Below, in pieces: positions 23,602-58,864 of a DNA stretch of 64,000 nucleotides. The stretch lies in NCBI RefSeq assembly GCF_003014615.1, contig NZ_PYGI01000002.1, positions 124,001 to 188,000 on the forward strand, in the 5' to 3' direction. The position numbers were made by a program, and so were the translations under genes. The notes under the pieces were generated by a model. That model did no database searches. It was not told the DNA's origin and saw only the letters and a list, made by a program, of their open reading frames with translations. Position 1 is the stretch's first letter; every line of letters starts with the position of its first letter. This DNA comes from Marinobacterium halophilum (lineage in GTDB: Bacteria > Pseudomonadota > Gammaproteobacteria > Pseudomonadales > Balneatricaceae).

Positions 23602-24618
23602 TTAAACCAGCGGTGGGCCGATAACTTCAACCCACTCGGTACCGTCAAACAGCAAAGCCTGTTCAGGCCCATAGGAAAGCAGCATTTCGGGACATGCATC
23701 CACACTCAAAAAGGAAAACTGAGCAGGGCCTTCCTCAGGGAATACATACCGGTGGTATTGACCATCTTCCAAGTACCCCAATTCATAGTCGCTACCAAGC
23801 CAAACCTTGCCATCAAACCAGGCCATACCATGGTATGCCAAAGCAGGTGCATCCATGACTTCCCAATGACCGTTTCGTCCCCGAACAACCGGTCCGTTTC
23901 GACCGGTCACATATACCTGACCGTCTCCCGCACAGAGCACACTATCAATCATCCGCGGATACTCTGGCAAAGCCATTTCATTCCATACGCCATTTAGGTA
24001 AGCCCAAAGTGTTTGCTCGCCGCCAGCATAGATTTCACTCTCACTGAACCCATCGAACGCATAAAAGCCGACATTGGCATTTAGAAAACCACCATCACGT
24101 TTTTTTATGAAATCCATATGCTTGAAAAGATCTGGGTGATCTTGTCGATCAGTCAAGTCCGTCCAGATGCCGGGTCCATCTCGACGAAAAAGCTTGTTGA
24201 GTTGACCGCAAGCATATAGATGATCACCAACTACCCGTAACTGATAACCACCTTTGGTATACCCATCCCACTCCTCCCTGGGTTTGCCAATATCTACATA
24301 ACCTGTGTCACGCTCACCAACTTCAAACATATCAGTTAATGTTATAGTGCGCCCTTCCTTTTGGAAGATGATAGATTGGAAGTAGCCCACGTTATATACG
24401 TTAGAAATGTGAAATCCGTTGTTATTTTTTATCCTGCTGGGTGAATAAGTCAGAACTCTACTGTCGAAATCATATATGCTCCTCATGCCATCATCTTCGC
24501 CCAGCCATTCTTTTAGCATGATTTGAAAATTCTCTGGATCTGAAATCGTTGCATAAATAATCTCAAAACCCTCGATCATTTCATCATATTGTATTTCAAT
24601 AAAGTTATATCGATTCAT
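23602..24618 (-). CDS. Propeller-like hypothetical protein, paralogue 2
   Basis: A 338-residue protein of unknown function, paralogous to the gene at 22388-23425. The shared core includes AFDGFSESEIYAGGEQTLWA, GDGQVYVTGRNGPVVRGRNG and LSYGPEQALLFDGTEWVEV. The N-terminal 90 residues differ more between the two. No signal peptide or membrane segment is visible. The start at 24618 has no good ribosome site, so translation may be weak. A 170-base spacer separates it from its paralogue. The role is unknown; see paralogue 1 for the immunity-protein hypothesis. Confidence 0.65.
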   Translation of the reverse strand: MNRYNFIEIQYDEMIEGFEIIYATISDPENFQIMLKEWLGEDDGMRSIYDFDSRVLTYSPSRIKNNNGFHISNVYNVGYFQSIIFQKEGRTITLTDMFEVGERDTGYVDIGKPREEWDGYTKGGYQLRVVGDHLYACGQLNKLFRRDGPGIWTDLTDRQDHPDLFKHMDFIKKRDGGFLNANVGFYAFDGFSESEIYAGGEQTLWAYLNGVWNEMALPEYPRMIDSVLCAGDGQVYVTGRNGPVVRGRNGHWEVMDAPALAYHGMAWFDGKVWLGSDYELGYLEDGQYHRYVFPEEGPAQFSFLSVDACPEMLLSYGPEQALLFDGTEWVEVIGPPLV

Positions 24619-44532: not shown

Positions 44533-46067
44533 ATGCTTCAGCCGAGGATCTGCGGAGCACGTTTATACGTGCCTTTGCCGACTTGAAACAGGGACGTGAA
44601 ACCTTCGTGCCGCAGCTTGGCACCCAGGAAATGGGCCGGATCACCCGCCTGTCCACCGGCATTGCGCAGGTCAGCGGCCTGCCCGGCGTCGGTGCCGATG
44701 AGCTGGTCAGCTTTGGTGACGGCGTGTTCGGCATCGCCTTCAACGTGGACGAAGACGAGATCGGCGTAGTGCTGCTGGGCGAATACCGGCATCTGCAGGC
44801 CGGCAACGCTGTCGAGCGCACCGGGCGGGTGATGGATGTCTGCGTCGGTACGGGGCTGCCAGGACGTGTGATCGACCCGCTCGGTCGGCCGCTCGATGGC
44901 CTCGGAGCCATTGCCACCGAGGCACGCCTGCCCATAGAACGTCCGGCACCGCCGATCATGGACCGTGCGCCGGTCACAGTCCCGCTGCAGACCGGCCTGA
45001 AGGTAATTGATGCGCTGATTCCGGTCGGCCGTGGACAGCGTGAGTTGATCCTGGGTGATCGCCAGACCGGTAAAACCGCCATCGCCATCGACACCATCCT
45101 CAACCAGCGCGGCAAGGATGTACTCTGTATCTATTGCGCCATCGGCCAACGTGCCTCGGCGGTAGCCAAGGTCGTGGCCACGCTGCAGGCGCACGATGCA
45201 ATGGACTACTGCGTGGTGGTGCTGACCGAAGGCAACGACCCGCCGGGGCTGACCTACATCGCGCCCTATGCCGCCACCAGCATCGCCGAGTATTTTATGG
45301 CGCAGGGGCGTGACCTGCTGATCGTTTACGATGACCTGACCCACCACGCCCGCGCCTACCGCGAGCTGTCACTGCTGCTGCGGCGTCCTCCCGGTCGGGA
45401 GGCGTTCCCCGGCGACATTTTTTACATCCATTCGCGGCTACTTGAACGTGCCACCCGCCTGCGACCGGAGTGCGGCGGCGGCTCATTGACCGCGTTTCCG
45501 ATCATTGAAACCGAAGCCCAAAACCTGTCAGCCTACATTCCGACCAATCTGATCTCGATCACCGATGGCCAGATCTATCTGTCACCCTCTTTGTTTGAAC
45601 TGGGGGTGTTACCGGCCATCGATGTTGGCCAATCGGTCTCGCGGGTGGGCGGCAAAGCGCAACAACCGGCCTACCGCGCGGTAGCGGGTGATCTGAAGCT
45701 GGCCTATGCCCAGTTCGAGGAGTTGGAAACCTTCGCCCGCTTCGGTGCCCGTCTGGATGAACACAGCCGCGCGGTGATCGAGCATGGACAGCGTATTCGC
45801 GCCTGCCTCAAACAGGCTGAAGGCGCACCGGTTTCGATGCCCGCTCAGATCACTGTACTGCTGGCCCTGATCGAGGGCTTGTTCGACCCCATCCCGATGG
45901 AGCGAATGGCCGATGCAGAGCAGGCGGTGCGCGAGGCCGGTACCGCGCTGCCCGATGCCCTGCAGCAACGGTTAGACGGTGCCGAGCGCCTTCGTGATCA
46001 GGATCGCACGGCGATCATCGCCCTCGCCCAAGCCGCATTGGACAACCTGCCCGGAGCGCCCTCATGA
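44529..46067 (+). CDS. atpA: N-type ATPase subunit alpha
   Basis: A 512-residue non-catalytic nucleotide-binding subunit. Visible are [18 protein letters not shown] (Walker A), [33 protein letters not shown] and the arginine-finger region [18 protein letters not shown]. The ATG at 44529 overlaps the atpF stop (ATGA). It is the eighth of nine genes in the operon. Confidence 0.94.
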
Positions 46068-46951
46068 GTCATTCCTCTGCCGACCTGCGCCGTCAGATCA
46101 ACAGCGCCACCGACCTTCAGGCCGTGGTCCGCACCATGAAAGCTCTGGCTGCTTCGAGTATCAACCAATACGAACAGGCCGTGCAGGCGCTGGCAGATTA
46201 TGCCCATAGTGTGGAACTGGGGTTGAGCGTCTGCTTGCGTAACGTCGCCAGCGAGCATCCCCTCGGCCTTGAAACCCTATCCGGCACGACAACGCCCGCT
46301 GGGGTTGTCGTGTTCGGCTCGGATCAGGGGCTGGTGGGGCAATTCAATGATGTGGTGGCCAACCATGCTCTGCAAGCATTGGCGGATCAGTCACCCCGCC
46401 CGCTCGTATGGGCCGTGGGCGAACGCGTACATGCAAACTTGGCCGATGCAGGTTTGCCACCGGCGGGGGACTTCGGCGTCCCCGGTTCCGTGCAGGCGAT
46501 TACCCTGCTGGTCGGACAGATTCTGGCGGAAAGTGAAGCACGCATCAGCCGAGGCGAAATCAGCGGGCTCCGTCTGTTTTACAACCAGCCCACGCCTGCG
46601 ACAACCTATTCACCCACGAGTCAGCACCTGTTGCCACTGGATGCACACTGGTATCAGCAACTGACCCAGCGGCACTGGCCGAGCGACAATCTGCCCGAAG
46701 TACTAGGGGCCGACACCTCAACCTTGCAGGCGCTGATCCGCGAATATCTGTTCGTCTCCCTGTTTCGCGCCTGTGCCGAATCGCTGGCCAGCGAGAATGC
46801 GAGCCGCCTGAGCGCGATGCAGCGCGCCGACACCAACATCGGCGAACGTCTGGAAATACTCAGCATGAGCTTTCATCGTGAACGTCAGGACGGCATCGAC
46901 GAGGAGCTGTTCGATGTCATCGCCGGTTTTGAAGCCCTGCCAAAACGTTGA
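46064..46951 (+). CDS. atpG: N-type ATPase subunit gamma
   Basis: A 295-residue central-stalk subunit. It starts with the N-terminal helix [20 protein letters not shown] and ends with the C-terminal helix [20 protein letters not shown]. The core beta/alpha domain has [16 protein letters not shown]. It overlaps atpA by four bases and closes the operon. Confidence 0.92.
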
Positions 46952-48949: not shown

Positions 48950-49936
48950 ATGTCCTCCCAGCTTGTGGACCGATTCGGCCGTCATGTCAGTTATCTGCGC
49001 CTCTCTGTCACCGACCGGTGTGACTTCCGTTGCGTGTACTGCATGGCAGAAAAAATGCAGTTCCTCCCCCACGACCAAGTGCTTTCACTCGAAGAACTCT
49101 ACGATGTTGCCCATGCCTTCAACCAACTGGGCGTCAACCGGATTCGTTTGACCGGCGGCGAACCACTGGTGCGCCGAGGGGTCATGAGCCTGATCGAGCG
49201 TCTGGGCCAGCTGCCGGTCGAGCTGGTGCTCACCACCAACGGTTCGCAACTGCACAAAATGGCCATGGATCTGGCCCGCTGCGGCGTCGAGCGTCTCAAT
49301 ATCAGTCTGGACTCGCTACAGCCGGAGCGCTTCAAAACCCTGACCCGCAACGGCCGTCTCGATCAGGTGCTCACCGGCATTGAAGCGGCCCGCTCGGCCG
49401 GATTCAAACGCATCAAGCTCAATACCGTCATGCTCAAGGGGCGCAATGATGACGAGGTGCTGGACCTGGTCGACTTTGCCCGCCGTGCGGGCCTCGATAT
49501 CAGCTTTATCGAAGAGATGCCGTTGGGCCAGATCACCGAACATGAACGCGCAGAGTGTTTCTGCTCCAGTGATGAGCTGCGTGAGCGTATCAGCAGCCGC
49601 TATGCACTCACCCCATCCACCGAACGCACCGGTGGCCCGTCGCGTTATTTCCGCATGGCAGATAGCGATATCCGCGTCGGCTTCATCTCGCCACACAGTC
49701 ACAACTTTTGCGGCGACTGTAACCGCGTCCGCGTCACTGTTGAAGGCCGTTTGCTGTTGTGCCTGGGCAATGAGCATTCCGTCGATCTGCGTGAGGTGCT
49801 GCGCAGCTATCCCGATGACGCAGAACGATTGCAACAAACGCTGATAAACGCCATGGCGATCAAGCCGGAGAAACATGAATTCAACCTGGAAGAACAGCCG
49901 CAGATTTTGCGTTTCATGAACATGACCGGCGGCTGA
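48950..49936 (+). CDS. moaA: GTP 3',8-cyclase MoaA
   Basis: A 328-residue radical SAM enzyme for the first step of molybdenum cofactor synthesis. The SAM cluster motif is [13 protein letters not shown] (C-x3-C-x2-C). The second, substrate-binding cluster is [33 protein letters not shown] and the C-terminal Gly-Gly (MTGG) are also present. GGGGAGAG precedes the ATG. It lies just upstream of moaB and the Mo enzyme operon, matching the demand for cofactor. Confidence 0.96.
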
Positions 49937-49962: not shown

Positions 49963-50292
49963 ATGTCCAAAACCCCAGCTGCTCAGTTCGTTCCGCTCAG
50001 TATTGCGGTACTGACCGTTTCCGATACCCGCACCACGGCCAACGACACCTCCGGTGACCTGCTGGCCGATCGCCTGATCAGCGCAGGACATGCCTTGGCG
50101 GCTCGCGGTATCGTCCGCGATGATATCTACCAAATGCGTGCCCGTGTATCCGCATTGATCGCCGACACCGAGACTCAGGTGATCTTGATCACCGGCGGTA
50201 CCGGCTTCTCGCACCGGCCCTGCAACTTTGTCGGCACGTTGCAACGCGCGCTGGACACCCGCCGGGCGGAATCGCACGATGAACCGGCCTGA
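49963..50292 (+). pseudogene. moaB: moaB with an internal deletion
   Basis: The 109-codon ORF begins as a normal MoaB (FVPLSIAVLTVSDTR, DDTSG-type NDTSGDLLADRL, VILITGGTGF) up to residue 82. It then jumps directly to HRPCNFVGTL, the motif normally at the very C-terminus of MoaB. About 70-75 residues are missing, including the segment with the catalytic aspartate and the PGS loop. The frame is kept. MoaB/MogA adenylates molybdopterin; this product should be inactive, so another MogA/MoaB must exist if the Mo enzyme downstream is used. An assembly error is the main alternative. Confidence 0.75.
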
Positions 50293-50353: not shown

Positions 50354-50367
50354 ATGATCTAGATCAA
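50354..50367. promoter_or_regulatory. FNR/Anr-like box upstream of the Mo enzyme operon
   Basis: ATGAT-CTAG-ATCAA at 50354-50367 differs by one base from the FNR/Anr consensus TTGAT-N4-ATCAA. It lies about 140 bases before the alpha subunit start. Activation under low oxygen is the expected effect. Confidence 0.55.
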
Positions 50368-50502: not shown

Positions 50503-53274
50503 ATGCATATGTGGAAACTCAAGCGCCGTAACTTTCTCCAAGGGCTGAGCCTTACCACGGCCGGAGTGATGATCAGCGGCAAGGGCTGGGCGCTCAACCG
50601 CCTGGAACCGATCCAGAACACACTGGCCAGCGAATATCCTTACCGCGGCTGGGAAGATCTGTACCGCAACGAATGGGACTGGGATCATGTTGGTCACGCC
50701 GCCCACTGTATCAACTGTATGGGCAACTGCGCCTGGAACGTCTATGTCAAAGACGGCCTGGTGATCCGCGAAGAGCAGATTGCCAAATATCCCCAGGTCA
50801 ATCCGAACGTTCCTGATGCCAACCCGCGTGGTTGCCAGAAAGGCGCCATCCATTCCACCGCCATGTACGAAGCCGACCGCCTGCGTTACCCGCTAAAGCG
50901 CGCCGGTGAGCGCGGCGAAGGCAAGTGGCAGCGCATCTCCTGGGATCAGGCCACCGAAGAGATCGCCGACAAGGTGATCGATATCTTCGTCAAATACGGC
51001 CCCGGCAAACTTAAAACTCACCAGGGCTCCGGCAACCAGACCATGGTGCGCCATTCCGGCCCCAGCCGTTTTGCCTCACTGGTGGGCGGCATCCAGCTGG
51101 ATGGTTTTACCGTGGTCGGCGACCTCAATACCGGTGCCCATCTGGCCTACGGCAACCCGCTGGAGAGCTTTACCTCCGATGCCTGGTTCGATGCCGATTA
51201 CATTATGCTCGGCATGATCAATCCCAATGCCACCCGTATCCCTGATGCGCACTACATCTGGGAAGCCAAGTACAACGGTGCCCGCATCACCAGCACCGCG
51301 CCGGACTACAACCCAAGCTCCATCCATACCGATCTGTGGATGCCGATTGAGCAGGGTTCGGACCCTTTCCTGGCGATGTCGTTCGTCAACGTCATCATCG
51401 AGGAAAAACTGTACCAGCCCGCGTTCATGAAGGAACAAACCGACCTGCCGATGCTGGTCCGCACCGACAACGGCAAGCTGCTGCGTGAGAGCGACCTGGT
51501 CGACGGCGGCTCCGATGAGGTGTTCTACCACTGGGACCTGAACACCAACCAGGCGGTCATGGCCAAGGGCTCCATGGGCAGTGACAACAAGGACTTGAAA
51601 CTCGGCAACGTGGACCCGGCGCTGGAAGGCGAATTCGAGGTCAACGGTATCGATGTCACTACCGTGTTCGAGCAGGTGAAGAAAGAAGCCGCCAAATATC
51701 CGCCGGAAAAAACCCGCAAGCAGACCGGCCTGCATGCCGACGTGGTGCGCAATGAAGCCCGCCATCTGGCCAAAGCAAAAAAAGCGATCATCATGCTGGG
51801 CTATATCACTTCCAGCTACTCCAACTGCCTTTATATCGGCTGGGGTTATGCGCTGGCCCTGGCGCTGACCGGCCACGGCGGCCGTACCGGCGGTCTGGAC
51901 ACCTCCTGGGTGGTGTGGAATCACCCGAAATGGACCGAGCTGTCCACCTTCGACGGCAAGAAGTCGGCCCGCTACGAGCCCGGTGGGCTGGGCGAAGTAC
52001 TGCGTGGCGACATGATGAGTGGCATCCGCCGCCACTTCGACAACAAGAAGCTCAAGGAGCGTGTCGGCTTTGACGTCGACGAGATGGAAGCGATGATGCA
52101 GGAGTCCATCGACAAGGGCTGGATGCCCTACTACGGCGAGATCAAGGGCATGATCTCCATTGCCGACAACACTTTCCGCCGTAACAAACTGGCAGAACAT
52201 TACCGCGACGAGCATCTGCGCCAGGCCAGTGAACTGTACGTCAACGTCAACGTGCGCATGGACTCCACCGCCGAATGGGCCGACTACATATTGCCTGCGG
52301 CCAGCCACTACGAAGCCTGGGATCTGCGTACCCAGGGCTATCACCGTTTCTGTAATGTGTTCACCGAATCGGTGCCGCCGGTGGGCGAATCCAAGCCCGA
52401 CTGGGACATCATGGCACTGCTCACCAAGAAGATTCAGGAACGTGCCATCGCGCGAGGTATCGGCCCGATTCCGGATGGCGAGGTCACCCGAGACCTGCAC
52501 ACCATCCATGACGACTACACCATGAACGGCAAGCTCAATACCGCATTGGATGCGACCCGTTACATTGTGGATAACTCACCGGAGTTCGGCGGCGTCACCC
52601 TGGAAGAAGCGGCGGAAAAAGGCTTTATCGTCATGAACGAGCATGCCGGCCTGAACCAGCCGTTACAGAAAGACCAGCCCTATAACCCGTTCACCGCCCA
52701 GACCGATGGTAAAAAGCCCTATGAAACCCTGACCGGACGCATCACCTTCTACTGCGACCACCCGCGTTTCGTACAGCTTAAATCCACCGTGCCCACGGCG
52801 CGTCTGTACGCCGGCCCGGAAGCCTCGAACTACCCGCTGCACTTCTACTCGCCGCACGCCCGCTGGGGCATTCACTCCAACTGGCGCAGCAACAAGTACC
52901 TGCTGCGACTGCAGCGCGGTGAGCCCAACATCTACATCAATCCCCAGCTGGCTGAACAACGCGGCATCAAGGATGGTGACCGGGTGAAACTGTTCAACAG
53001 CAACGGCGAGTTCTTCGCTCAGGCCAAGTTCTACCCCAGCATCCCGGTCAACTCGATCATGATGGAACACGGGTGGGAGCCACACCAGTACATCCACCGC
53101 AAGCCGATGAACAACTCCCATGTCACCCTGCTGCAGCCTCTGGAGCTGGTCGGTGGTTGGGGCCACCTCCAGTTCATCTATGCCAAATGGAACGCCAATC
53201 AGGTCATCCATGAAAGCAGCTACGACATCGCGCTGGCCACGGCGGATGAAATCAGCGACCCACGGGCCGTATAA
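50503..53274 (+). CDS. Type II DMSO-reductase-family molybdoenzyme, catalytic alpha subunit
   Basis: A 923-residue Mo-bisPGD oxidoreductase with a Tat signal (KRRNFLQ at 7-13, hydrophobic to about 30), so a periplasmic enzyme. The FS0 cluster motif is H68-x3-C72-x3-C76-x34-C111, exactly the type II (NarG-like) form. The likely Mo-ligand aspartate is in GFTVVGDLNTGAHLAYGN. Length and operon order match dimethylsulfide dehydrogenase, selenate, chlorate and perchlorate reductases and ethylbenzene dehydrogenase (about 910-980 residues). Which substrate applies cannot be decided from sequence. An FNR-like box lies upstream. Confidence 0.88.
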   Translation: MHMWKLKRRNFLQGLSLTTAGVMISGKGWALNRLEPIQNTLASEYPYRGWEDLYRNEWDWDHVGHAAHCINCMGNCAWNVYVKDGLVIREEQIAKYPQVNPNVPDANPRGCQKGAIHSTAMYEADRLRYPLKRAGERGEGKWQRISWDQATEEIADKVIDIFVKYGPGKLKTHQGSGNQTMVRHSGPSRFASLVGGIQLDGFTVVGDLNTGAHLAYGNPLESFTSDAWFDADYIMLGMINPNATRIPDAHYIWEAKYNGARITSTAPDYNPSSIHTDLWMPIEQGSDPFLAMSFVNVIIEEKLYQPAFMKEQTDLPMLVRTDNGKLLRESDLVDGGSDEVFYHWDLNTNQAVMAKGSMGSDNKDLKLGNVDPALEGEFEVNGIDVTTVFEQVKKEAAKYPPEKTRKQTGLHADVVRNEARHLAKAKKAIIMLGYITSSYSNCLYIGWGYALALALTGHGGRTGGLDTSWVVWNHPKWTELSTFDGKKSARYEPGGLGEVLRGDMMSGIRRHFDNKKLKERVGFDVDEMEAMMQESIDKGWMPYYGEIKGMISIADNTFRRNKLAEHYRDEHLRQASELYVNVNVRMDSTAEWADYILPAASHYEAWDLRTQGYHRFCNVFTESVPPVGESKPDWDIMALLTKKIQERAIARGIGPIPDGEVTRDLHTIHDDYTMNGKLNTALDATRYIVDNSPEFGGVTLEEAAEKGFIVMNEHAGLNQPLQKDQPYNPFTAQTDGKKPYETLTGRITFYCDHPRFVQLKSTVPTARLYAGPEASNYPLHFYSPHARWGIHSNWRSNKYLLRLQRGEPNIYINPQLAEQRGIKDGDRVKLFNSNGEFFAQAKFYPSIPVNSIMMEHGWEPHQYIHRKPMNNSHVTLLQPLELVGGWGHLQFIYAKWNANQVIHESSYDIALATADEISDPRAV

Positions 53275-53286
53275 GAGGAGACTGTC

Positions 53287-54267
53287 ATGGCTGTCAAACG
53301 TCAACTGAGCATGGTCCTGGACCTGAACAAATGTATCGGCTGCCAGACCTGCACCGCGGCCTGCAAACTGATGTGGACCAACCGTAACGGCCGAGAGTTC
53401 ATGTACTGGAACAACGTGGAAACCCAGCCTGGCAAGGGCTACCCGCGTGACTACCAGAACATGGGCGGCGGCTTCGATGAAAACGGCGGCTTGCGTCTGG
53501 GCCGCCAGCCTAGCCAGGAAGACTACGGTATTCCCTGGGAGTACAACTACGAAGAAGCGCTGATGACCGGTACCGACCCCTGGCTGAGGCCCAACGTCAA
53601 ACCCACCTGGGGCGCGAACTGGGACGAGGATGAAGGGCTGGGCGAATACCCCAACAGCTACTACTTCTACCTGCCACGGCTGTGTAATCACTGCGCCAAC
53701 CCCGCGTGCCTTGCGGCCTGTACCCGCAACGCCATTTACAAGCGTCAGGAAGACGGCATCGTACTGGTAGACCAGGAACGCTGCCGCGGCTACCGCTATT
53801 GCGTCAACGCCTGCCCGTACAAAAAGATCTACTTCAACGAACAGATCTCCAAGTCCGAGAAGTGCATCTTCTGTTACCCGCGTATCGAGAAAGGCCTGCC
53901 AACCGCCTGCGCCCAGCAGTGTGTCGGCCGTATCCGCTGGATCGGCTACCGCGATGACGAGGAAGGCCCCATTCACCTGCTGGTGGAAAAATACAAGGTG
54001 GCACTGCCACTGCACCCGGAATGGGGCACCCAGCCCAACGTCTTCTACGTGCCGCCGCTGTCACCGCCCAAGTATGGCCCTGATGGCCAGGCGCTGGATG
54101 AGTCGAGGATTCCGCTGGAGTACCTGGAAAGCCTGTTCGGTAATCGGGTCGGAGAGGTCATGGCCACCCTGCAAACCGAGCGTCAGGCCAAGGCCGAAGG
54201 GCGCGACAGCGAATTGATGGACACGCTGATCGGTTACAAGCATGCCGAAATGTTCAAACTCAGCTAA
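53287..54267 (+). CDS. Type II molybdoenzyme iron-sulfur beta subunit
   Basis: A 326-residue electron-transfer subunit with four Fe-S cluster motifs: CIGCQTCTAACK (16-26), CNHCANPACLAACTRN, CRGYRYCVNACPYKK and CIFCYPRIEKGLPTACAQQC. The third motif has Tyr in place of the second Cys (C-x2-Y-x2-C), the hallmark of the [3Fe-4S] site in type II enzymes (Trp in NarH). It has no signal peptide and is exported bound to the Tat-bearing alpha subunit. It passes electrons between alpha and the haem gamma subunit. Confidence 0.92.
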   Translation: MAVKRQLSMVLDLNKCIGCQTCTAACKLMWTNRNGREFMYWNNVETQPGKGYPRDYQNMGGGFDENGGLRLGRQPSQEDYGIPWEYNYEEALMTGTDPWLRPNVKPTWGANWDEDEGLGEYPNSYYFYLPRLCNHCANPACLAACTRNAIYKRQEDGIVLVDQERCRGYRYCVNACPYKKIYFNEQISKSEKCIFCYPRIEKGLPTACAQQCVGRIRWIGYRDDEEGPIHLLVEKYKVALPLHPEWGTQPNVFYVPPLSPPKYGPDGQALDESRIPLEYLESLFGNRVGEVMATLQTERQAKAEGRDSELMDTLIGYKHAEMFKLS

Positions 54268-54282
54268 GCGGGAGACAAACGG

Positions 54283-55017
54283 ATGAACGGACTGCCGAGC
54301 ACGCCATACGGACCCGAATACGTCCACGCACGTGGCGTGGTGTTTCGCCTCGCGGCGGCACTGCTGGATTACCCGCTGGCGGAAACCCAGCAGGCGATTG
54401 AGGAAGGCCAGGCGGGACAGATTCTGGATACCGCAATGCAGCAGCTGGGGGCTGCGCCCTGGCCCCTGCTGCCCCCCAGCCGGGATCTGATTCAGCTTGA
54501 AGTCGGCTACATGGCCACCTTCGTGCATGGCCGCCGCGGCAAGCCTCGGGTGCCACTGGTCGCCAGTGCTTACGAGCGCCTGCTGGCCGGTGACACCCAG
54601 GGCAGCTTCCTGCTCAATGTGCAGGCGTTCTATACCCACTTCGGGCTCAAGGCCGCCACCGAAGACGAAGGCCATATCGACGAACCGGACCACTTGGTCG
54701 CCATGCTCGAATTTTGCGCCCTGCTCTGCCATCTGGAAGAACAGGCGCTGACCCAAAGGCGGGATGCCAGCCCCTACCAGCGTGCCCTGCGCGATTTCAT
54801 GGCCCGCTACCTGATACCGCTGACGAACACGATCCGCAGTCGCTACGCCCATGAAAACGACTATGGTTTGGACCCCACACTGGCGCATCTGTTACAGGTA
54901 CTGCCGGACTGGGCTGACAGCCAGCAAGCGGTACTGGAACACCAGGCCGGTCCTTACCCCGCGCCGGGCAGCCGTCGGATTCCCACGACATCGCTGCCTC
55001 AAGGGCTTTGGGACTAG
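54283..55017 (+). CDS. TorD/DdhD-like cytosolic chaperone of the molybdoenzyme
   Basis: A 244-residue, mostly helical protein of the TorD/DmsD/NarJ redox-enzyme chaperone group. Typical parts are YVHARGVVFRLAAALLDYPL at the start, LLPPSRDLIQLEVGYMATFVHG, and CALLCHLEEQAL with FMARYLIPL. Such chaperones hold the alpha apo-protein during cofactor loading and guard its Tat leader. Its place third in the cluster (A-B-D-C order) matches ddhABDC and serABDC. Confidence 0.85.
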   Translation: MNGLPSTPYGPEYVHARGVVFRLAAALLDYPLAETQQAIEEGQAGQILDTAMQQLGAAPWPLLPPSRDLIQLEVGYMATFVHGRRGKPRVPLVASAYERLLAGDTQGSFLLNVQAFYTHFGLKAATEDEGHIDEPDHLVAMLEFCALLCHLEEQALTQRRDASPYQRALRDFMARYLIPLTNTIRSRYAHENDYGLDPTLAHLLQVLPDWADSQQAVLEHQAGPYPAPGSRRIPTTSLPQGLWD

Positions 55018-55042
55018 GCACGACTCAAGCGAGGAACCTGTC

Positions 55043-55828
55043 ATGATATTCAACGCCTCCTTTCACCACGCCGTCCTGCTGGGGCTGGCGATTGCCGTGA
55101 GCAACACGGCTCACGCGGACCATAGCGAACTCAACCCCAACGCCACCGACATCAAACCGGGGGATACGGTAAAGGTTTCGACCGTCCCCGGCACCATCTA
55201 CCTGCGCACGCAGAATGATCCGGATGACCTGCTCTGGGACCGCCTGCCCCTGTACCGCATCGAATTGATGCCCGCACCGCCGGTACACACCTCGGTGATC
55301 CTGCGCATGGACCCGACTGCGACCACACCCAAGCATCTGTACTTTCAGGTCGCCCGCTCCGATGAACGCTTTTATATGCGCTTGCGCTGGAAAGATGCCA
55401 CCGAAAACCGTGCCACTACCGTGGACCAGTTCCGTGATGGTGCCGCTGTGCAGTACGCCCTCAAGGGAGCCGAGACTTCGTTCATGATGGGCACCGGGCC
55501 GGATAACCCGGTCAATATCTGGTATTGGCGTGCGGACCGGGACGATGCGGAAAGCCTCGCTGCCGGTGGTTTCGGCAGTACCACCCACCTGCCCGAGCAG
55601 ACCGTATCCGGGGCCAGTGCCTACATTCGCGAAGAGATCGCACAAGACAGCGAATGGCATGTCGTCATGTCCCGTCCACTTAAGGTCGAGGGCGAACATC
55701 AGGTTGATCTCAACCGTGCCGCCGTTCCCGTGATCTTTGCCCTGTGGCAGGGCGCGGATGAGCAGCGCGATGGCGACAAGCGGATCAGCCAAAACTGGAT
55801 TATGCTGGATAACAGCAGCGGCCAATGA
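55043..55828 (+). CDS. Type II molybdoenzyme haem b gamma subunit
   Basis: A 261-residue periplasmic protein with a signal peptide (residues 1-25, ending NTAHA). It belongs to the ethylbenzene dehydrogenase gamma-like haem b family (DdhC/SerC/EbdC), recognised by the beta-sandwich segments FMMGTGPDNPVNIWYWRADR and PVIFALWQGADEQRDGDKRI. In the family, one Met and one Lys ligate the haem; MM in the first segment is a good candidate for the Met. GAGGA precedes the ATG at 55043. It hands electrons to or takes them from a soluble or membrane cytochrome. Confidence 0.88.
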   Translation: MIFNASFHHAVLLGLAIAVSNTAHADHSELNPNATDIKPGDTVKVSTVPGTIYLRTQNDPDDLLWDRLPLYRIELMPAPPVHTSVILRMDPTATTPKHLYFQVARSDERFYMRLRWKDATENRATTVDQFRDGAAVQYALKGAETSFMMGTGPDNPVNIWYWRADRDDAESLAAGGFGSTTHLPEQTVSGASAYIREEIAQDSEWHVVMSRPLKVEGEHQVDLNRAAVPVIFALWQGADEQRDGDKRISQNWIMLDNSSGQ

Positions 55829-55851
55829 ACCGGCCTCGGGAGGCGCAATCG

Positions 55852-56952
55852 ATGTCAGTATCCCACTTTTCACCTGATCAGCAGGACCCACTTGCACTGC
55901 GACCGGAAGACTGTAACCGAGGACATGCCTGTCAGTTCTGTCCCCAGGAAGACAGCTGCCTGCTGGACAAATCACACCACGAAAAACGCCTGCTGGAGCA
56001 ACGGCTGGACGGGATTGGCCAGATCATTCTGGTGATGGCCAACAAGGGCGGCGTCGGCAAAAGTACCGTTACCGCCAACCTTGCGGCCGGACTGGCCCAA
56101 CGCGGCTACCGCGTGGGCGTGGCCGATGCCGATATTCACGGCCCCAACCAGAGCCGCTTTTTCAACCTGGTGGGGCAACGCGTCCACCTGACACCGGCCG
56201 GACTGGGCACCCGAACCTGCGCCCACCCGGCATTGGCCCATCCGATCAGGGTCGGATCGCTTGCCTTCCTCATGGACCGTGACGACACCCCGATCGTCTG
56301 GCGTGATGCCTACAAGCACGATTTCATGCACCACCTGATCGGCAGTTTTGACTGGGGAGAGCTGGATGTTCTGCTGATCGACATGCCACCCGGTACCGGC
56401 AATGAACTGATCACCCTCGCTGACCTGCTGGAACATCAGGCGGTCGCGGCACTGATCGCCACGACGCCACAGGAGGTTGCACTGATGGACAGCCTCAAGG
56501 CGATCCGCTTCTGCCAGGAACGCGGACTGCCGCTGATCGGGGTGGTCGAAAACATGGCCGGCGTCACCTGTCCCAATTGTGGTGAAGAGTTCCACCTCTT
56601 CCCCCGCGCCCACCTGGCCGACGCGCTGGCCCAACTGGAGGTCAACTCCATCGCCCAGATCCCGCTGTCGCCACAACTGGCGCTCGCCTCGGATACTGGG
56701 CACCCGATGCTGCTGGAACACCCTGACAGCACTGAGGCCCGCGCCTTTGCACCCGCCATCGACGCCTGCATCCAGCATGCCCATGCTGCCAGCATGGAAG
56801 CCGCCGCACAGGCACTGGAAGGAGTGATGGATGCGGCCGGAGCCGAATTCATGGCCGCAATGGGCACCCTGCCCGACACCACCCGTGACGAGTTGACCGA
56901 ACTGCTCGCCCGCGAACATGACCGTTTACACAAGACACCCGGACAACCCTGA
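55852..56952 (+). CDS. NBP35/Mrp-like P-loop ATPase with N-terminal Cys cluster
   Basis: A 366-residue P-loop ATPase of the Mrp/ApbC/NBP35 group. Residues 21-36 hold C-x5-C-x2-C-x5-C, close to the N-terminal cluster of eukaryotic NBP35. The deviant Walker A KGGVGKS is at 65-71, and the bridging CxxC is C240-x2-C243. These proteins carry and transfer [4Fe-4S] clusters. Its place after the gamma gene, with four bases of overlap if the upstream ATG at 55825 is used, suggests a dedicated Fe-S or Mo-enzyme maturation factor. The ATG at 55852 is preferred because GGGAGG precedes it. ddhABDC-type operons are not known to need it; the role is inferred. Confidence 0.85.
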   Translation: MSVSHFSPDQQDPLALRPEDCNRGHACQFCPQEDSCLLDKSHHEKRLLEQRLDGIGQIILVMANKGGVGKSTVTANLAAGLAQRGYRVGVADADIHGPNQSRFFNLVGQRVHLTPAGLGTRTCAHPALAHPIRVGSLAFLMDRDDTPIVWRDAYKHDFMHHLIGSFDWGELDVLLIDMPPGTGNELITLADLLEHQAVAALIATTPQEVALMDSLKAIRFCQERGLPLIGVVENMAGVTCPNCGEEFHLFPRAHLADALAQLEVNSIAQIPLSPQLALASDTGHPMLLEHPDSTEARAFAPAIDACIQHAHAASMEAAAQALEGVMDAAGAEFMAAMGTLPDTTRDELTELLAREHDRLHKTPGQP

Positions 56953-57001
56953 CCCGTGCGCACCCTCGCCACTGAATGCCATTGGACACAAGGAGCCGCC
57001 C

Positions 57002-58864
57002 ATGAACGCCCCGACCAATCCCTCGCGCCGGAATTTTTTCCGTCAGATGGCCAGTCGTTTCGACCCCAATGCCCCTGCCGTTGCACCCTGGAGCCTTGTC
57101 CCCGAGGTTAATGCCGGTGACGGCGATGTGCTCTGGTCAGGGTGGACCGGCCAGGGCCAGGTATTTGTCGTCGGCGATGAAGGCCGAGTACTGCATTTCG
57201 ACAGCCACCCGGAGACACAGCGCCTCGGCTGGCAGCTGATGGATGTCCCCATTCGCCAACCCCTGCACGGTATCTGGGGCCGGTCCCCCAACGACTTGCA
57301 TGCAGTGGGCTGGATGGGCTGTATCCTTCACTTTGACGGTAAGCAGTGGCAATCGGTACAGGGCGGCGTGGTCGATAATGACCAGGGCCGCTTCACCGCC
57401 TGCACCGAGAATACACCGCTGTTTGCCATCGACGGCAATGCTGCCGGTGAAGCCTGGGCCGTAGGCGATAATGGTTGCGTATTGCACTTCGACGGCACGC
57501 ACTGGCAACCGGAAACATCCGGTATCACCACCAACCTGCGCGCGGTTACCTGCACACCCGGCGGCCATGTCTACGCTGCGGGCAATGATGGCAGCGTCAT
57601 TCGCCGCGATGAGCACGGCCAATGGCAGGTGCTCGACTGTCCACACAGCTCCGGCTTGCACGCATTGCTGGTATTGGGAGAAGACGAACTATTGCTGGCC
57701 GGAGGTCGCTATTTTGTCGACCAGGGCGGGTTTCGGGGCGAACTGCTGCGGTATGCCGACGGCTGCTTTACCCCGCTCACCTTCGACACGCCTCTACCTC
57801 GGCTCAGAGCCTTGAGGGCCTATAAAGACGGCGTGCTCATTGTGGGCGATCAGGGCCGCTTGTTTTACCTCAAGGACAACCAGCTGAAACAGCTTGAGTG
57901 CAATACGCACCACGACCTGATGGATATCATCCCCCTGGCCTCAGGCGAAGCGCTGGTTGTCGGCGATTTCGGGACGGTCATGACCGCTGCGCCCGAGTTT
58001 GTACACGCACTGGCTCCGGCCGCTACGGACGAGACTACCTCCCACTGGCAGATCATGCCCTCGGCCACCGAGCGCCAGCTGTGGGGCATTACCCAAACAC
58101 ACGACGGTACCTGTTATGCCTGCGGAGATGCCGGCACGGTCTTACGTCTGCACCATGACGTTTGGGAGCCGCTGCCCGCCCCCAGCGAACTGCCCGTGCA
58201 CTGCCTGTGGAGCTGCCCCGGCAGCGGCCTGTTTGCGGCGGGTCAGGAAGGGCGGATCTTCCGCTTCGACGGCCAACATTGGCAGCTCCATTTCGACCTG
58301 CATCTGGATCTGACCATTCTCGCTCTGTGGGGTACAGCCCCCGATTCCATCTACGCGGTAGGGGATGAAGGCCTGATTCTGCATTTCGACGGCTTGCGCT
58401 GGCAGCGCATGCCCAGCGGCACCACCTCTGCCCTGTATAGCCTGTGGGGACTCGATGACGCCCATCTGCTGGCGGTAGGAGATTTCGGTCTCGTCATGCG
58501 CTACAACGGTGACAACTGGAAGGATTTCAATGCCGGAACCGAACAGTTCATCTACGGCATCTGGGGTGCGGCTCTGGACGACATCCATGCCGTGGGTCTC
58601 TCCGGCACCCTGACCCACTTCGATGGCCAACGCTGGCACGCCGTCCCGGCCCGAGTGCAGGATGACCTGCTCGCCATCTCCGGTTCAACATCTGGCGTAT
58701 TTGCCGTTGGCACTCGCGGCTGTGCCCTGCATCTGGAGCACGGCAGCTGGCAACGGGAAACTACGCCCACCTCAGAAGGCCTGAGGGCGGTGTGTGCAAC
58801 GGCTGAAGGAACGGTATATGCGGTGGGTGATCGTGGCGTGATCCTGCGACGCAGGGCACCATAA
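57002..58864 (+). CDS. Fourteen-repeat double beta-propeller protein of the molybdoenzyme cluster
   Basis: A 620-residue protein built of repeats with core A-V-G-x-x-G-x-[LI]-x-[HR]-[FY]-D-G-x-x-W, such as HAVGWMGCILHFDGKQW and YAVGDEGLILHFDGLRW. I count 14, enough for two seven-bladed propellers. The N-terminus SRRNFFRQ (8-15) is a Tat-type RR motif, but no hydrophobic stretch follows, so it is probably not exported by itself. The AAGGAG site before the ATG at 57002 fixes the start. It closes the molybdoenzyme operon. A scaffold or assembly role, perhaps recognised by the TorD-like chaperone, is inference; the function is unknown. Confidence 0.8.
   Translation: MNAPTNPSRRNFFRQMASRFDPNAPAVAPWSLVPEVNAGDGDVLWSGWTGQGQVFVVGDEGRVLHFDSHPETQRLGWQLMDVPIRQPLHGIWGRSPNDLHAVGWMGCILHFDGKQWQSVQGGVVDNDQGRFTACTENTPLFAIDGNAAGEAWAVGDNGCVLHFDGTHWQPETSGITTNLRAVTCTPGGHVYAAGNDGSVIRRDEHGQWQVLDCPHSSGLHALLVLGEDELLLAGGRYFVDQGGFRGELLRYADGCFTPLTFDTPLPRLRALRAYKDGVLIVGDQGRLFYLKDNQLKQLECNTHHDLMDIIPLASGEALVVGDFGTVMTAAPEFVHALAPAATDETTSHWQIMPSATERQLWGITQTHDGTCYACGDAGTVLRLHHDVWEPLPAPSELPVHCLWSCPGSGLFAAGQEGRIFRFDGQHWQLHFDLHLDLTILALWGTAPDSIYAVGDEGLILHFDGLRWQRMPSGTTSALYSLWGLDDAHLLAVGDFGLVMRYNGDNWKDFNAGTEQFIYGIWGAALDDIHAVGLSGTLTHFDGQRWHAVPARVQDDLLAISGSTSGVFAVGTRGCALHLEHGSWQRETTPTSEGLRAVCATAEGTVYAVGDRGVILRRRAP

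Follow-up and report, generated by a model that had tools for sequence, protein, structure and literature searches.

Gene content of the locus

Our subject is a six-gene set of Marinobacterium halophilum that centres on a molybdoenzyme and may be a mobile oxyanion-reductase cassette with its own iron-sulfur (Fe-S) maturation pair. The window, that is, the whole stretch of 64,000 nucleotides analysed, carries at positions 50503-58864 six co-directional genes on the plus strand, designated here A, B, D, C, N and P. The initial annotation had placed a type II molybdoenzyme gene set in ABDC order at this interval, followed by an NBP35-like ATPase and a 14-repeat propeller protein; gene calls and family matches bore out the order of the first four genes, and all six genes were confirmed (Table 1).

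Table 1. Features of the locus in window coordinates (DMSO, dimethyl sulfoxide; Mo, molybdenum)
Feature	Description	Position	Strand	Evidence or remark
A	Alpha subunit, type II DMSO-reductase-family molybdoenzyme, 923 aa	50503..53274	+	TIGR03479, 1237.2 bits
B	Iron-sulfur electron-transfer subunit, 326 aa	53287..54267	+	TIGR03478, 582.4 bits
D	TorD/NarJ-type assembly chaperone, 244 aa	54283..55017	+	PF02613, 1.5e-14; TIGR03482, E 4.9e-35
C	Haem b gamma subunit	55043..55828	+	PF09459; TIGR03477, 193.3 bits
N	Mrp/Nbp35-type P-loop ATPase, 375 aa	55825..56952	+	PF10609, E 3.7e-73
P	Double beta-propeller protein, 620 aa	57002..58864	+	Structure model, fold searches
FNR/Anr-like box	ATGATCTAGATCAA, 9/10	50354..50367	+	Starts 149 bp before A start
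moaA	Mo-cofactor biosynthesis neighbour	48950..49936	+	TIGR02666, 375.6 bits
moaB	Neighbour, internal in-frame deletion	49963..50292	+	TIGR02667, partial match

A, B and C scored above the NCBIfam cut-offs for type II enzymes (984.75, 480.7 and 169.85 bits, respectively), the TIGR03477 match of C having been scored with a longer start of that gene. D stayed below the TIGR03482 cut-off (121.3 vs 152.3 bits) despite its low E value, and it passed the cut-off of PF02613. A possesses a twin-arginine translocation (Tat) signal, RRNFLQG, a His/Cys motif for FS0 and the Mo-ligand Asp207, and C shows an apparent Sec-type signal when read by eye. The listed start of C at 54851 overlaps D and was revised to 55043, where the ATG is preceded by GAGG; the listed start of P at 56918 would overlap N, and 57002 was taken instead. 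N overlaps C by ATGA, and an alternative start at 55852 would give N 366 aa. With these starts, the intergenic gaps from A to P are 12, 15, 25, -4 and 49 bp, so that the six genes are likely to form one transcript.

Distribution of the six-gene set

To find relatives, four aligned alpha sequences were used to scan titled genome contigs. The patterns favour close relatives (77-94% identity), and the 39 alpha-related loci recovered are of this kind, remote ones lying outside the reach of the scan. Their hosts include Halomonas/Vreelandella, Marinobacter, Marinobacterium, Oceanimonas, Oceanisphaera, Colwellia and Marinospirillum, in addition to Pseudomonas/Stutzerimonas/Denitrificimonas, a Thiorhodococcus metagenome-assembled genome (MAG), Alcaligenaceae and some unassigned MAGs. 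N and P stood together with A, B, D and C on the same locus in 35 of the 39 (P is incomplete in L053, and in L058 the end of the locus truncates it). The remaining four break off early, L085 at a transposon and the others at the edge of a contig; in each of these genomes, another contig carries D-C-N-P following the remainder of A or B. The accessory genes are therefore not private to one genome, a possibility that had been raised at the outset, and the co-occurrence count proposed then came out in favour of the association: N and P accompanied A in 39/39 loci or genomes and in 7/7 Marinobacter carriers. Because the gene set recurs throughout, its grouping goes beyond chance.

Searches of wider genome sets gave the same picture. 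First, among 124 Marinobacter genomes, A (E <= 1e-150), N (E <= 1e-80) and P (E <= 1e-60) were each present in seven, and these were the identical seven. Second, an alpha above the TIGR03479 cut-off was present in four of 293 genomes of the order, all of which possessed N and P. Third, in a sample of 369 genomes of the class that was searched for N and P, the only N ortholog (E <= 1e-75) was the window's own; P matches (E <= 1e-30) were found in three genomes, two of them partial propeller matches, and the only full-length one was again the window's. Wherever both N and P were seen, they adjoined each other, and over distant hosts they retained 57-80% (N) and 53-74% (P) identity to the window's proteins. 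The patchy presence of the cassette across families suggests that it spread by horizontal transfer.

Ortholog sets for alignment excluded second locus copies (L043-L048), minus-strand matches and matches with <75% coverage. The N alignment used 34 of 36 orthologs (the broken readings L060 and L067 were dropped) and the P alignment 33 of 34 (the partial L053 was dropped); one alignment of A left out 13 of 40 orthologs. In Marinobacter fuscus (L085 and L102), transposase-like genes follow the first part of a split A, and P reads as two overlapping pieces, as if frameshifted; this cassette may be decaying as a unit. Tandem, partly duplicated cassettes were observed in Oceanisphaera (L049, 1276-15712), an unassigned MAG (L082, 1256-16119) and Oceanimonas (L058, 8071-20838), and the first alpha of L049, the second of L058 and that of L057 form a subclade in the alpha tree.

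Phylogeny of the alpha subunit and the AW-1 locus

A midpoint-rooted tree with FastTree local supports was built from 24 of 40 cassette orthologs, the window's A, Ideonella-type ClrA, PcrA, EbdA, one haloarchaeal alpha and nine other type II alphas. The 25 cassette alphas formed one clade (support 0.991), which grouped with the ClrA of Ideonella and Alicycliphilus (1.0), and PcrA paired with the haloarchaeal alpha (1.0). The alpha of Stutzerimonas chloritidismutans AW-1 (L069) fell within a seven-member subclade (0.983) to which the window does not belong. The window's alpha and beta subunits are 83% and 91% identical to those of AW-1 and 45% and 59% identical to those of Ideonella. SerA of Thauera selenatis is 83.6% identical to Ideonella ClrA (PMC12724226), and the nearest other clade thus consists of oxyanion reductases; groups ClrA1-3 are distinguished in PMC9751292.

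AW-1 possesses the same A-B-D-C-N-P order, read over two contigs that overlap by 1641 bp at 99.8%, the second holding a partial A followed by B-D-C-N-P. Moving upstream from its A, one meets a transposase gene (a by-eye reading), then a c-type cytochrome gene and, about 2.2 kb away, the chlorite dismutase gene cld (PF06778); two more partial Cld-family matches were seen in AW-1 on contigs C35 and C44. This strain is reported to grow by chlorate reduction with chlorite dismutation (PMC6299022). From its position and from earlier literature, the operon is presumed to be the chlorate reductase of AW-1. Clark et al. (2013) reportedly described what is probably this locus, and Barnum and Coates (2020) are said to have named a new chlorate reductase type. 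A literature search pairing chlorate reductase with Nbp35, Mrp or propeller terms gave none on chlorate reductase among the matches listed, which does not make N and P of AW-1 unreported.

These results change the standing of several proposals in the initial annotation. The comparison of the alpha subunit with ClrA, EbdA and PcrA that it called for, carried out in a tree without DdhA and SerA, placed A with the AW-1-type enzymes, and the suggested new enzyme subfamily was not borne out, since A forms no new branch but nests with an alpha encoded near cld. The view that the accessory genes lie outside the known clr operons holds for Ideonella and Alicycliphilus and fails for the presumed clr locus of AW-1, where both are present. 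An operon of this type is thus already present in a characterised bacterium, and part of what had been named as grounds for giving up the idea of novelty, an alpha nested in a characterised clade that already has both genes, was found.

Substrate of the enzyme

The cld family was detected in one of 38 cassette genomes searched, that of AW-1, and in none of five further ones, three of which were repeats; over distinct cassette genomes, the tally is 39 without cld and one with it. The window's own genome gave no PF06778 match. The other carriers searched thus lack the gene needed to live on chlorate, and their real substrate is probably something else.

The alpha sequences were also compared around the active site, by sequence alignment with PcrA, the model of A (mean predicted local distance difference test score (pLDDT) 41.5) being too poor for distances. 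D207 of A aligns with D170 of PcrA, which we take to be its Mo ligand. In AW-1 and the MAG contig L070, 24 shared differences, an insertion among them, set both apart from every one of twelve near relatives. Seven of the 23 shared substitutions fall at positions 179-220, around D207 (binomial p 5e-5, a value that treats sites as equal, for an interval chosen afterwards). Sites 179, 201, 202, 220 and 357 are invariant in the other 39 sequences (Q179, G201, F202, L220 and S357 in the window and 38 others) and changed in both AW-1 and L070. Private changes at otherwise invariant sites numbered 20 in L076, a distant member, six in L062 and 0 to 4 in every other tip. The alignment matches positions 201 and 202 to F164 and Y165 of PcrA, presumably gate residues of that enzyme with W461 as the third; the gate is reportedly described by Youngblut et al. 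(2016). The PDB holds a W-to-E variant at one place, and the insertion after 471 and W477L of AW-1 lie near the place of the third gate residue, where the alignment is uncertain. The confinement of cld to AW-1 among the genomes searched, together with the changes around the Mo ligand in AW-1 and L070, suggests that the ancestral substrate of the cassette was probably an oxyanion other than chlorate, and that the substrate of the members without cld, the window included, is probably not chlorate either.

The alternative is that all of the cassette enzymes are chlorate reductases, and that strains without cld reduce chlorate gratuitously or leave the chlorite to their neighbours. The 83% identity to an alpha that lies about 2.2 kb from cld speaks for this, and chlorite can be removed by other cells or by reductants, according to PMC9751292. 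Against this stand the near absence of cld (1/38 genomes, 0/5 more) and the fact that four of the five otherwise invariant sites changed in AW-1 and L070 lie at 179-220, two of them matching F164 and Y165 of PcrA; we consider a universal chlorate reductase rather unlikely, although it deserves to be kept in mind.

The ATPase and the double propeller

N shows what is expected of an Mrp/Nbp35 protein, namely a NUBPL domain (PF10609), a deviant Walker A and a CxxC. The cysteines of its N-terminal C-x5-C-x2-C-x5-C and central CPxC motifs, as well as the deviant Walker A NKGGVGKS, were invariant in 35/35 rows. The N-terminal spacing is unlike that of eukaryotic Nbp35, which is C-x13-C-x2-C-x5-C. 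The best solved relatives of N were a nucleotide-binding/iron-sulfur carrier protein (3kb1) and Cfd1 (6g2g), and none of seven solved-structure matches covered the N-terminal motif. PADLOC returned a weak ATPase match for N and none for P. Another PF10609 protein of the genome scored higher (341.4 vs 247.4 bits) and is presumably the housekeeping copy, so N looks like an extra one. Nbp35-like ATPases serve [4Fe-4S] assembly, Ind1 being dedicated to complex I (PMC7980591), and bacterial MrpORP is reported to transfer its cluster in vitro to apo-proteins of its own complex (PMC6345978).

The model of P contains two propellers (mean pLDDT 87.2), with 7 + 7 blades by our count from its strand list; their mutual placement is uncertain, as the predicted template modelling score (pTM) is 0.58. 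The only family match of P was a propeller match over about 55 residues, and in the fold comparison the C-terminal half aligned with seven-blade proteins, the N-terminal half being barely covered. The fold search gave no function-specific match for P, CIAO1 being one of many propellers tied in the comparison with its C-terminal half. Elsewhere in the window, a 338-aa protein at 23605-24618 on the minus strand has a propeller-like stretch (28% identity to P over about 80 residues) and gave no Pfam match. Near the N-terminus of P, R9, R10 and F13 form an RR-x-x-F motif that is invariant in 34/34 rows. Residues 14-30 are not hydrophobic when read by eye, and the motif thus has no hydrophobic core behind it; for this reason, P is probably cytoplasmic and the motif no working export signal.

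The company that such ATPases keep in other lineages also bears on the role of the pair. In three haloarchaeal type II operons (L120, L126 and L127), the best three haloarchaeal plasmid matches, the chaperone gene is followed in turn by genes for a hypothetical protein, a HEAT-repeat protein and a P-loop NTPase. The one ATPase scanned (L120) possesses FSCA, NUBPL and DUF2249 domains and is 35% identical to N over 219 residues. There is thus a precedent in haloarchaea for an Nbp35-type ATPase in a type II operon: PMC11218638 lists the nar-operon ATPase of Haloferax mediterranei as an iron-sulfur carrier that is induced under denitrification, with a log2 fold change of 3.60. An Nbp35-type ATPase and a repeat protein have thus been brought together in each of two type II lineages that are remote from one another, which is the strongest circumstantial argument for a role in maturation. 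A search of other type II loci also gave an N-like match in L116, which was not counted, being a generic ATPase of the ParA/MinD type (24% identity, with CbiA as its top Pfam match).

A different role for P would be that of a cytoplasmic sensor, or of a decoy in Tat quality control that offers its RR motif to chaperone D, leaving N alone as the Fe-S carrier. Such a role would suit the invariant RR-x-x-F without a hydrophobic core, the low confidence of this segment in the model (pLDDT <50) and the likeness of RRNFF in P to RRNFLQG in the alpha subunit. In every case where both were seen, however, N and P were neighbours, as fits a joint job, and we regard the sensor or decoy as unlikely.

Regulation, electron supply and neighbouring genes

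In 21 of 40 loci, the 400 bp preceding A contain an FNR/Anr-type box scoring at least 9/10, and in 10 of these loci the box is perfect. Such boxes occurred in 86 of 2028 tiled 400-bp windows, 15 of them perfect, a background that includes the same upstream regions and in which related species are not independent. This enrichment favours anaerobic use as a reductase, and FNR regulation is our best reading of the upstream sequences. A small c-type cytochrome gene was found in 23 of 39 loci, just upstream of A in 21 and after P in two; none was present among the ten window genes scanned.

If the enzyme instead worked oxidatively, like dimethyl sulfide dehydrogenase, it would pass electrons to a c-type cytochrome. 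The cytochrome gene in 23/39 loci would serve this direction as well, the ABDC order is also that of ddh, and type II enzymes are reported to run in both directions (PMC10100899). The FNR-like boxes point the other way, as do the closest relatives with a known role, which are reductases in our tree without DdhA, and an oxidative enzyme appears improbable. Still less can be said for N and P being hitch-hikers of a mobile cassette with no role in the enzyme: the cassette does move between families, but both proteins are well conserved over distant hosts, and neither was found lost where A is intact in the genomes examined.

The cassette is flanked upstream by moaA and a shortened moaB and downstream by panP on the opposite strand. 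The moaB gene is about 75 residues shorter internally, in frame, than that of M. weihaiense (L077), where a moeA-like gene follows moaB; the latter is missing at the window's locus. An ATP synthase gamma-like gene (PF00231) lies near the cassette at 46064-46951.

Proposed function of the cassette

Taken together, we give a probability of about 0.58 to the reading that A-B-D-C-N-P is a mobile oxyanion-reductase cassette with its own Fe-S maturation pair, of which AW-1 is a derived member. The six genes would act as a single mobile functional cassette, with A-B-C as a periplasmic, anaerobically induced oxyanion reductase in the AW-1 chlorate-reductase clade. With the help of chaperone D, A and B would be assembled in the cytoplasm before Tat exports them, and C would be a periplasmic haem b carrier that receives electrons from a soluble c-type cytochrome. 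N would serve as the enzyme's own [4Fe-4S] carrier ATPase, and P, a double propeller, would contact N and dock it onto apo-A/B before export, the pair being a maturation device for A-B-C alone. AW-1 would have gained cld and had the residues around its Mo site rewritten. That the accessory genes might be a maturation module had been suggested from the start, and this remains a fair reading: because N and P accompany A everywhere we looked, they appear to be a dedicated module, most likely for maturation.

Several observations weigh against this reading. First, the nearest neighbours of the AW-1 alpha within its clade are poorly supported (0.009). Second, L070 has the AW-1 substitutions although cld was not detected in its genome, and this loosens the tie of these changes to chlorate; the genome, a MAG, may be incomplete, and the L070 contig breaks off 402 bases upstream of A. 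Third, P matched CIAO1 with a Z of 31.5, tied with designer, G-beta and many unrelated propellers. Fourth, 19 of 40 upstream regions, including that of AW-1, have no box scoring 9/10 or better, and the window's own box is imperfect. Fifth, the type II enzymes of Ideonella and Alicycliphilus have no N or P genes beside them, and other Pseudomonadales type II loci (L112-L119) are without P and without a close N, so such helpers are not generally needed.

A bolder version, which we consider less likely than not, can also be put forward. N and P may be a bacterial counterpart, for one molybdoenzyme, of the targeting part of eukaryotic cytosolic iron-sulfur protein assembly (CIA), the ATPase passing [4Fe-4S] clusters to apo-alpha/beta with the propeller as its platform, paralleled by the haloarchaeal FSCA-Nbp35 ATPase with a HEAT protein as platform; cassettes without cld may respire an oxyanion yet to be assigned, and chlorate respiration in AW-1 may have been derived through rewriting of the gate and acquisition of cld. 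If the proposed function holds, a dedicated Fe-S loading pair would be added to the maturation of respiratory molybdoenzymes, a field centred on the cofactor chaperone. Set beside the AW-1 enzyme, those without cld also allow the states before and after the evolution of chlorate respiration to be compared in nature, with few candidate residues. The cassette also points to an unassigned anaerobic respiration common to Halomonas, Marinobacter, Oceanimonas, Marinobacterium and others. The dedicated pair and the substrate of the majority without cld are both worth following.

Comparison with known systems

The presumed clr locus of AW-1 has the six genes in the window's order and an alpha in the same clade. 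It differs in the cld, c-type cytochrome and transposase genes upstream of A, and in Q179K, G201H, F202V, L220M, S357T, a one-residue insertion after 471 and W477L. The clrABDC operons of Ideonella dechloratans and Alicycliphilus denitrificans share the ABDC order and the enzyme architecture, whereas a c-type cytochrome gene and mobB follow there in place of N and P.

The haloarchaeal operon of the nitrate reductase (nar) type likewise combines a type II alpha, a beta, an EB_dh-related gamma, a TorD chaperone and an Nbp35-type ATPase. Its alpha is only 35% identical, Rieske and cytochrome b genes are present, a HEAT-repeat protein stands in the propeller's place, and the scanned ATPase possesses additional FSCA and DUF2249 domains. 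In the CIA pathway of eukaryotes, an Nbp35-Cfd1 scaffold works with Cia1-Cia2-Mms19 in targeting. The CIA set comprises an Nbp35 scaffold and FSCA, HEAT and propeller proteins, and the haloarchaeal set and the N-P pair resemble it in kind. N shares its deviant Walker A, CPxC and N-terminal four-cysteine motif with the Mrp/Nbp35/Ind1 family and the CIA proteins, and it differs from CIA Nbp35 in the spacing of the N-terminal cysteines. P, a double propeller, shares the seven-blade propeller fold with Cia1 but resembles CIAO1 no more closely than it does other propellers.

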